Shown here piece after piece: positions 11,092-12,933 of a stretch of 64,000 bases of DNA. Below the pieces are notes generated by a model that was not told the DNA's origin, did not search any database, and saw only the letters and a list, made by a program, of their open reading frames with translations. The stretch comes from Nitrospira sp. (GTDB lineage: Bacteria > Nitrospirota > Nitrospiria > Nitrospirales > Nitrospiraceae). Each line of letters opens with the position of its first letter. Positions within the stretch are counted from its first letter, which is position 1. The position numbers and the translations under genes were made by a program. The stretch covers positions 1 to 64,000 of the forward strand of contig VGXC01000002.1 in assembly GCA_016873495.1 (NCBI GenBank), written 5' to 3'.

Positions 11092-11180
11092 TGTTCCTCT
11101 CCCCTGTTAACCCATGTGGGTGCTATTATAGGACCTCGCCCCGCGCATCGCAACGGCGGCTGGCACAATTCGGCAACGCT

Positions 11181-11313
11181 CACTGTCGGCAAAGGACCTC
11201 TCCGGCCCCAGTTGATCGAAGGGGCCGGCCTAGCAAGCTCGATCATATTTCACGGGCGGCAAAAAACTTCTCCGGCCCCATCGATCGTAGGGACCGGCTC
11301 AAGCGAAGCTCGG
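11181..11313. repeat. 70-bp hairpin repeat, block 1 (two copies)
   Basis: Two copies of a 70-base unit. Each carries CCGGCCCC, an 11-base loop and GGGGCCGG (11202-11228 in copy 1; 11272-11297 in copy 2, with one mismatch), then a tail AAGCTCG. Copy 2 stops at an ATG-containing junction just before the gene at 11327. The same unit occurs three more times at 11604-11808. Confidence 0.85.
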
Positions 11314-11326
11314 CATGGGGGGTGAC

Positions 11327-11593
11327 ATGTTTCAAGAGGAGAAGACGTTTTCGTTCCGCTTCAGCCTCGAGGCTTCATTTCCCGACGACTATGAAGGCGA
11401 ATTGGACAACTATGCCTGGGTCCAGGAATGGGAACGAATGGTCAAGCCCGAACTCCTGCGGGTCCTCTTCGACTCCTTACGGCGGCATCCGTCCTGGTCG
11501 GCTCATGTGCGGAACCGCGGCCTCTCTCCGCTGGATGAAATTGAAATCGCCCTGGTGAAGGATTTCTCGAAGCCCTCGCTCGGCTTGAGTTAA
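11327..11593 (+). CDS. Small hypothetical protein
   Basis: An 88-residue acidic protein containing WERMVKPELLR and SAHVRNRGLSP. GGGGGTGAC immediately upstream supports the ATG at 11327 over the in-frame ATG at 11315. It sits between two blocks of the 70-bp hairpin repeat. No family recognised; its codon use looks like that of its neighbours. Confidence 0.65.
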   Translation: MFQEEKTFSFRFSLEASFPDDYEGELDNYAWVQEWERMVKPELLRVLFDSLRRHPSWSAHVRNRGLSPLDEIEIALVKDFSKPSLGLS

Positions 11594-11603
11594 GGCCGAA
11601 CGA

Positions 11604-11808
11604 TCACAGTCGGCAAAGGACCTTTCCGGCCCCAGTTGATCGAAGGGGCCGGCTCAAGCAAGCTCGATCATATTTCACGGGCGACAAAATACTTCTCCGG
11701 CCCCAGTTGATCGAAGGGGCCGGCCTAGCAAGCTCGATCATATTTCACGGGCGGCAAAATACTTCTCCGGCCCCAGTTGATCGAAGGGGCCGGCCTAGCA
11801 AGCTCGGT
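11604..11808. repeat. 70-bp hairpin repeat, block 2 (three copies)
   Basis: Three tandem copies with hairpin stems at 11626-11652, 11697-11723 and 11767-11793, so the period is 71 then 70 bases. Stems are perfect 8-bp CCGGCCCC/GGGGCCGG pairs. The last copy is truncated at AAGCTCGG, one base before the hemW start codon, so repeat sequence replaces the usual leader and no ribosome-binding site remains. Confidence 0.9.
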
Positions 11809-12933
11809 ATGGCGCTTGGCATCTACATTCACGTCCCCTTTTGCCGCACCCGCTGCAGCTTTTGCGCCTTTTACCTCCGCATTCACCGGGAAGACTGGGC
11901 GGAAGCCTATGTTGAAGCGCTGACTCGCGAGATCCGCCTGCATGCGGCGCAGAGCAGTTTGCGAGGTCGTCTGCCGGACACCCTCTATTTCGGCGGCGGG
12001 ACCCCGACCACGCTCCACGTCGGGCAGCTCGTCGAAATCCTCGCCCTGGTCCGGGACAGCTTCGGACTGGCCCGGCAAGCAGAAGTGACCGTGGAAGCGC
12101 ACCCGGACTCGGTCACCGAAGAAGGACTGCAAACCCTTCGCGGAGCCGGATTCAACCGGATCAGCTTCGGCCTCCAGTCGGCGGACGAGAACGAATTGCT
12201 CCAGGTCGGCCGCAAGACGGAACGGGCGTCCGTCGACCTTGCAATCGCCCATGCCCGAGCGGCCGGTTTCACCAACCTCAATCTGGATCTGATCTATGGG
12301 TTGCCGGGCCAAACCCTCGCCAGTTGGCATGAGACGCTCGCGCAGGCGCTGGCCTTGGCTCCCGATCACCTGTCCTGCTATGCCCTGACCGTTGAAGAGA
12401 AGACCCACCTCCAAGTCTCCCTGCACCGGGGCGACCTGCCTGAGCCGGACCAGGACCGGCAAAACGACATGGAAGACCAAGCCGCGCTCCGCCTGGCAGA
12501 GGCCGGGTTCGACCGGTACGAGATTTCCAACTACTCCCGTCCAGGCTTTGCCTGCCGCCATAACTTGCTCTACTGGCAAGGCGGCGAGTATCTCGGCCTT
12601 GGCCCCAGCGCCCAGTCCTATCTCAACGGCTGTCGCTTCGGAAACGTGGAGGACCTGACCGCGTATCAGGCCGAGGTATCGGCTGGCCGCCTTGCCACAG
12701 TACAGACGGAGCAATTGAGCCCCGCGCAACGTCAGCGGGAAGCGCTGGTCTTCGGGCTGCGCCTCATCGAGGGAGTGTCGCTCAACGGAACATCGGAAGG
12801 CGCCGCGGATCAGTGGGAGCAGAAGCTGCAGCGGTTGGAACGGGAGGGGTTGATCGAGTTGAAAGCGGATCGTGTCCGGCTGACTGCGTTAGGCCGACGC
12901 TTTGCCGACCAAGTGGCGGTGGAACTACTGTAA
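11809..12933 (+). CDS. hemW: HemW-like radical SAM protein (heme chaperone)
   Basis: A 374-residue HemN/HemW-type radical SAM protein. The cluster motif C12-x3-C16-x2-C19 with Phe before the last Cys, the GGGTPT loop, the GLQS segment and the ISNYSRPGF region all fit HemW, which delivers heme rather than oxidising coproporphyrinogen. The C-terminal HemN-like winged domain is complete. The frame remains open upstream through the repeat block, but the protein-like sequence begins at MALGIYIH. HemN and HemW are easily confused; HemW is preferred because the longer N-terminus of HemN is absent. Confidence 0.85.
   Translation: MALGIYIHVPFCRTRCSFCAFYLRIHREDWAEAYVEALTREIRLHAAQSSLRGRLPDTLYFGGGTPTTLHVGQLVEILALVRDSFGLARQAEVTVEAHPDSVTEEGLQTLRGAGFNRISFGLQSADENELLQVGRKTERASVDLAIAHARAAGFTNLNLDLIYGLPGQTLASWHETLAQALALAPDHLSCYALTVEEKTHLQVSLHRGDLPEPDQDRQNDMEDQAALRLAEAGFDRYEISNYSRPGFACRHNLLYWQGGEYLGLGPSAQSYLNGCRFGNVEDLTAYQAEVSAGRLATVQTEQLSPAQRQREALVFGLRLIEGVSLNGTSEGAADQWEQKLQRLEREGLIELKADRVRLTALGRRFADQVAVELL

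Follow-up and report, generated by a model that had tools for sequence, protein, structure and literature searches.

Closest in kind to the repeat described here are the REPs and the miniature elements derived from IS200/IS605. REP and REPIN sequences, studied together with RAYT (TnpA-REP), are short structured intergenic repeats with many copies, tandem clusters and stems which vary in sequence with the structure kept, and all of these properties are shared by the hairpin units found before hemW in the window, the 64,000-nucleotide stretch of Nitrospira sp. DNA which was analyzed. In contrast to REP/RAYT, the unit has two different hairpins in a fixed order, a long fixed loop and one fixed left end after CNCC, while the GT[AG]G foot and the linked Y1 gene are missing. 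As these two defining tests failed, the units were not filed as REPs. PATE is the name given to palindromic miniature elements derived from IS200/IS605, and with IS200/IS605-derived elements the unit shares hairpins, a short target resembling a tetranucleotide next to one end, and the absence of a visible target duplication as judged at diverged sites; no parent element for the unit was found, however, among the 12 Y1 loci examined. Classical MITEs are likewise small, non-autonomous and present in dozens of copies, whereas the unit is without a terminal inverted repeat, its ends ATACC and CNCCAGT not being mutual inverted repeats. Integrative elements of tRNA 3' ends resemble the unit in having their junction at the tRNA 3' end, but the unit has no gene, preserves only the CCA and carries no tRNA-derived identity block. 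Hairpin repeats which invade spacers are also known as the GC clusters of yeast mitochondrial DNA and reportedly as the repetitive hairpin-forming elements of sponge mitochondria; these differ from the unit in organism and in sequence.

A preliminary description of the locus had reported five copies of a 70-bp hairpin repeat, and five units of about 70 bp were confirmed, in a block of two (11175-11316) and a block of three (11599-11810) with a start-to-start spacing of about 70 bp within each block (Table 1). Their minus-strand assignment follows the orientation of the repeat family. A 29-nt core, allowing up to three mismatches, occurred four times in the window as compared with zero in 100 shuffles. 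Scores were obtained with a covariance model built from 16 units (R1) and with a second one (R2), for which 120 matches from 99 sources were used. The perfect 8-bp stem attributed to the repeat is present in four window copies, whereas the copy at 11272-11297 contains a single G-T wobble and differs in its loop. The last unit had been thought to end one base before the hemW ATG; instead, its conserved end GGTAT (11806-11810, plus strand) overlaps the ATG (11809-11811), whose A and T come from the unit, the first two bases of this unit on the minus strand being their complement (T, A). The identification of hemW itself was upheld by the curated model TIGR00539 (272.8 bits; cut-off 205.4). No Pfam or NCBIfam match was obtained for the small upstream ORF, which has a second in-frame ATG at 11315.

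Table 1. Coordinates, in window positions, of the hairpin units, their large hairpins and the adjacent genes
Feature	Coordinates	Strand	Details
Unit 1, block 1; array-internal	11175..11244	-	Left end GATC, not ATACC; R1 70.2 bits, R2 61.8 bits
Unit 2, block 1; array head	11245..11316	-	Left end ATGCC, flank CCCCCC; R1 76.9 bits, R2 67.1 bits
Unit 1, block 2; array-internal	11599..11669	-	R1 77.4 bits, R2 69.9 bits
Unit 2, block 2; array-internal	11670..11739	-	R1 74.3 bits, R2 59.7 bits
Unit 3, block 2; array head	11740..11810	-	Left end ATACC, flank GCGCC; R1 86.7 bits, R2 73.9 bits
Large hairpin, unit 11175-11244	11202..11228		8-bp stem; minus-strand loop TTCGATCAACT
Large hairpin, unit 11245-11316	11272..11297		One wobble pair
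Large hairpin, unit 11599-11669	11626..11652		
Large hairpin, unit 11670-11739	11697..11723		
Large hairpin, unit 11740-11810	11767..11793		
hemW	11809..12933	+	PF04055, PF06969; TIGR00539
Small conserved ORF	11327..11593	+	88 aa from ATG 11327; upstream of hemW in relatives too

Read on the minus strand of the window, the unit consists of the left end ATACC, a small hairpin, a spacer, a G+C-rich hairpin of 8 bp and a tail. The loop of the small hairpin is TTC or TT (for example CAAGC-TTC-GCTTG), and that of the large hairpin is either the fixed TTCGATCAANT or longer and variable. TTC[A/G]ATCA was present in 84 of 120 units, many of the others having longer loops, and most of the longer-loop units displayed stand behind tRNAs. 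In the unit at hemW the large-hairpin loop is TTCGATCAACT and the tail is GGAGAAGTATTTTGCCGCCCGTGAAATAT, the start of which is formed by the last two bases of the stem. Inspection of the aligned units by eye revealed TGARCC before the large hairpin and GGAKAG after it. The tail ends near CNCC-AGT, and a right-end CNCC was found in just 68 of 120 units.

Both hairpins are maintained under compensatory change, with stems which differ in sequence between copies. In the alignment of 16 units 98.2% of 171 cells were paired, and changes on both sides of a pair were found in 24 cells as compared with 5.1 in shuffles. Across 114 distinct rows, in an alignment fitted to the first model and hence favouring the pairs of that model, pairing was 95.6% of 1464 cells, double-sided changes numbered 250 versus 78.8 in shuffles, and the covariation score reached 0.482, as against 0.138 for shuffled data and no more than 0.086 under sliding. 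Two pairs, the outermost ones of the small hairpin, lie outside that model; one was paired in 106 of 113 cells and never changed on both sides, and the other was unpaired in 25 of 113. Comparison with Rfam gave no match at the units, only the adjacent tRNA and tmRNA being recovered at gathering scores. In one relative (G018) units appear to be nested within other units (L205, L209). Behind several tRNAs (L018, L042, L117, L218) units come in pairs of the same order, first short-loop and then long-loop, and the two kinds could represent the two ends of one element.

When the rest of the genome was searched, a dispersed family was found of which the hemW locus is one of many sites. BLAST with the second block identified ten places in the 3.19-Mb genome, and R1 gave 48 matches at E ≤10 with 150 of 2192 candidates scored. 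With R2, 75 rows over 69 own-genome sources were recovered, and removal of 13 rows which repeated the same place in overlapping loci left 62 units; the locus set searched with R2 had partly been fetched around tRNAs and could therefore be enriched in tRNA-linked units, an effect of which the 48 R1 matches are free. The repeat family is real and dynamic and has a precise left boundary, the locus first described being one instance. No description of it was found in literature searches, which included passages of PMC12306157, PMC5767232 and PMC6006769, and going by these searches alone the family is apparently new to the literature.

With respect to relatives, R1 matched 23 of 41 genomes (the host and 40 relatives) at E ≤0.01, and R2 matched at least 70 of 295 genomes of the phylum at E ≤0.001, the phylum counts being lower bounds as 15 candidates were scored per genome. 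Within the phylum the repeat is nearly restricted to the taxonomic family of the host, to which 68 of the 70 matching genomes belong; one of the other two is from a sister family and one from another, distant family. In the latter genome, which is 77% complete, there is a single strong match of 87 bits (G072:C189:2984-3055), and this may reflect transfer or contamination. Plasmids, phages and viral contigs gave no match to a one-variant pattern or a single-unit query. Two Pseudomonas stretches had been picked up by a pattern whose gap was too long for most units, and these candidates were not supported by R1 (E 0.26 and 0.42).

The number of units changes between orthologous sites. At the hemW locus there are 2+3 units in this genome (G000), 1+2 in G003 and 0+1 in G002, so that three congeners carry five, three and one, and none was found in nine further relatives (L137-L145). 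The leader of the small ORF reads CGGAGGATGACATG in G002, where no unit is present, GGTATGGAGGATGACATG in G003 and GGCATGGGGGGTGACATG in the window, and the native Shine-Dalgarno-like G tract before ATG 11327 is kept despite the adjoining unit. Presence and absence were also observed elsewhere: tRNA-Pro is followed by two units in G000 and by none in G003, with the CCA intact in both; tRNA-Lys has a long-loop unit behind it in G000 and a short-loop unit in G003; and the own-genome unit at C31:21033 lies within a stretch which is absent from G003. Where filled and unit-free sites were compared the flanks had diverged, and no clean empty site was seen. While short tandem repeats are prone to misassembly, an assembly artefact or a chance repeat can practically be dismissed here, given the orthologous arrays at the same place in two congeners and the lack of any match in shuffles. 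The variation in unit number among relatives indicates that the hemW locus is neither an artefact nor static.

The preliminary description had tied the ends of the units to gene starts. The link to gene boundaries is real, and a lack of any link to gene starts was not observed; the boundaries concerned are wider than starts, however, because in this genome the 3' CCA ends of tRNA genes together with tmRNA account for 15 of the 35 array heads outside GGTAC-like contexts and form the biggest single class. The 62 own-genome units comprised 16 array-internal units, 11 with a GGTAC- or GGTCC-like flank, 14 at a tRNA CCA, one at a tRNA 5' end and 20 others. Most of the GGTAC-/GGTCC-like class lies in a MITE of about 125 bp (see below), C6:33579 being a possible exception. 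The 20 others include the two heads of the window, a unit abutted by the tmRNA tail (C28:30631), an apparent tRNA-Leu 3' fragment (C19:1865) and several sites with GGAG on the opposite strand. At 14 of the 44 own-genome tRNAs the unit begins exactly at the A of CCA, at offset 0. The R1 set, which was not seeded from tRNAs, also had 12 of 48 matches adjoining a tRNA tail, and among the best units listed per genome such positions, all at offset 0, were found for 4/22 in G003, 4/23 in G007 and 2/39 in G022.

The left boundary of the unit is fixed at CNCC, the element starting at the following A (CNCC/A). Over 71 heads, which were obtained by removing 30 array-internal or MITE contexts by a text rule from 101 distinct left contexts of several genomes and which are partly non-independent since some were copied as parts of larger repeats in G007 and G015, C was found at -1 in 66, at -2 in 63 and at -4 in 61. 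Position -3 was free (G 23, T 23, A 21, C 4). Transfer RNAs with C72 end in C-N-C-C-A, and the complements of Shine-Dalgarno sequences contain CTCC, so both classes of site receive one simple account from the CNCC rule. At eight loci or more (L021, L036, L121, L179, L180, L183, L186, L212) GGAG was seen by eye on the opposite strand beside the unit, shortly before a start codon. Start codons stood beside 26 of 50 non-tRNA heads as compared with 528 of 1605 control CCA sites, a comparison which is noisy in G+C-rich DNA and in which the unit itself can provide the ATG. From the density in the window about 41,000 CNCCA sites would be expected genome-wide, as against 45 tails; were one tenth of these sites usable, 0.4 tRNA or tmRNA tails would be expected among the 35 heads, far below the 15 observed. 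A short CNCC target therefore does not explain the tRNA excess, and either tRNA genes are favoured as targets or copies elsewhere have been lost more often.

Such positions could also suggest that the unit functions as a 3' trailer or terminator for stable RNAs in this bacterial family, acting in the ending or processing of tRNA and tmRNA and spread elsewhere as well. The units which adjoin CCA without a gap, in the direction of transcription, at 14 of the 44 tRNAs and also at tmRNA, the conserved loop with its covarying stems, and a T run after the hairpin in some copies would all fit such a role. We consider it unlikely, as 30 of the 44 tRNAs have no unit, orthologous tRNAs have different units or none, and at genes the unit lies antisense, the end which touches the gene start being the same one. 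In addition, the columns which follow the large-hairpin stem are A and then G or T, with no direct T run, and a terminator scan called none of the five window units.

Several further observations were made at tRNA genes. The apparent tRNA-Leu 3' fragment at C19:1865 (L122), which carries a unit, is found some 1.2 kb away from an intact tRNA gene with similar ends and no unit (C19:3163-3246), an arrangement reminiscent of the capture of a tRNA 3' end by a small integrative element. The tRNA genes of L220 and L221 have at least 40 upstream bases in common and different 3' flanks, with a unit in L221 only. A second repeat (CTTGGCGCGA ... TGGCGCGCCAG) was observed behind several own-genome tRNA genes (L226, L256, L258), and the units of L031 and L040 adjoin sequence similar to it.

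At hemW, the preliminary description had proposed that the last unit replaces the leader and leaves no Shine-Dalgarno sequence. The adjacency is correct, but the implied loss is not diagnostic. In unit-free L137-L140 the stop of the small ORF is separated from the downstream hemW start by 3 to 14 nt and, as judged by eye, no clear Shine-Dalgarno sequence is seen there either, so its absence at hemW cannot be ascribed to the units alone. The close start in these relatives suggests coupled translation of the two genes. The units add about 215 bp between the small ORF and hemW and may thereby weaken such coupling, and the predicted RNA fold around the start, which places a unit hairpin upstream of the ATG, has a folding energy within the usual range for such a composition (z -0.69). 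An effect on hemW translation is possible; the hemW units are most likely passengers. That the units serve as a regulatory RNA or 5' leader controlling translation of hemW and its neighbour, a role for which their position directly before two genes and the start codon formed in part by the unit could be cited, is very unlikely. The unit also occurs at unrelated genes, at tRNA ends and inside a MITE, its number varies from five to none among relatives, and the fold at the hemW start is not unusual.

Taken as REPs proper, the units would have been spread by a RAYT/Y1 transposase since lost from the genome. Their size, hairpin, intergenic position and tandem arrays are like those of REPs and BIMEs, and a Y1 gene was present in 19 of the 41 genomes of the host and its relatives. 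We regard this origin as improbable, because neither GTAG nor GTGG is seen at the hairpin foot of the displayed units and Y1 genes showed no link to the units. A Y1 transposase (PF01797) was absent from G000, whereas the same search was positive in 5 of 14 control genomes, and it was likewise absent from G003 and G007; these three unit-rich genomes have about 50 unit matches each. Y1 genes occurred in 13 of 23 genomes with units and 6 of 18 without, showing no significant association (Fisher p 0.21), and no unit was found within about 1.5 kb of 12 Y1 loci of relatives. RAYT/Y1 was accordingly rejected as the mover across the own genome and 40 relatives. PMC6006769 describes Y1 genes of class 3 whose foot is CnGA, which the TTGA/CTGA spacer of the unit resembles; this is only a lead. 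No gene was found to recur beside the units other than repeats and orthologues.

The reading which we favour, with a probability of roughly 0.6, is that the units are dispersed, non-autonomous, REP/MITE-like mobile hairpins of about 70-75 bp, recognized by structure and with their left end placed after CNCC. An enzyme supplied in trans would move the element, probably cutting beside the short CNCC motif and reading the hairpins in the manner of single-strand (HUH) transposases. The target motif is matched by tRNA and tmRNA tails (C72-N73-C-C/A) and by Shine-Dalgarno complements (CTCC). Insertion there would leave the gene intact, so that the copies which survive would be those with an end precisely at a tRNA 3' end or immediately ahead of a gene. 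The hemW copies would have multiplied in tandem and would separate hemW from the gene which it follows in relatives. If correct, the sharing of one target motif between tRNA tails and ribosome-binding sites is enough for a short repeat to colonize the safest places in a compact genome, some start codons and tRNA tails are partly mobile DNA, and there should be a mobilizing enzyme which can be traced by correlation.

A more specific and rather doubtful version would make the units a structure-recognized 'safe harbour' family of one bacterial family, with CNCC/A as a target which every tRNA with C72 and the complements of Shine-Dalgarno sequences provide. The element would enter at the borders of essential genes and leave them unbroken, since its initial bases would restore the final A of the CCA or contribute to a start codon. 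The mover would then lie outside the known transposases, and from the tRNA-tail excess it would follow that targeting involves the tRNA gene or its transcript.

In this genus some of the units are carried by another repeat, a palindromic MITE of about 125 bp with ends like CAGGATGTTCAAAAAGGCC ... GGCCTTTTTCAACATCCTG (in the own genome, for example, L074, L079 and L084). Matching pieces numbered 47 in G000, 53 in G003, 28 in G001 and 47 in G002, and in some copies of the MITE a hairpin unit occupies the centre. Independent insertion of units into these copies was considered and rejected, since in the own genome the unit-bearing copies have GAGGAGGTAC-like flanks in common and show the centre of the plain MITE replaced; one capture followed by later copying fits these features better.
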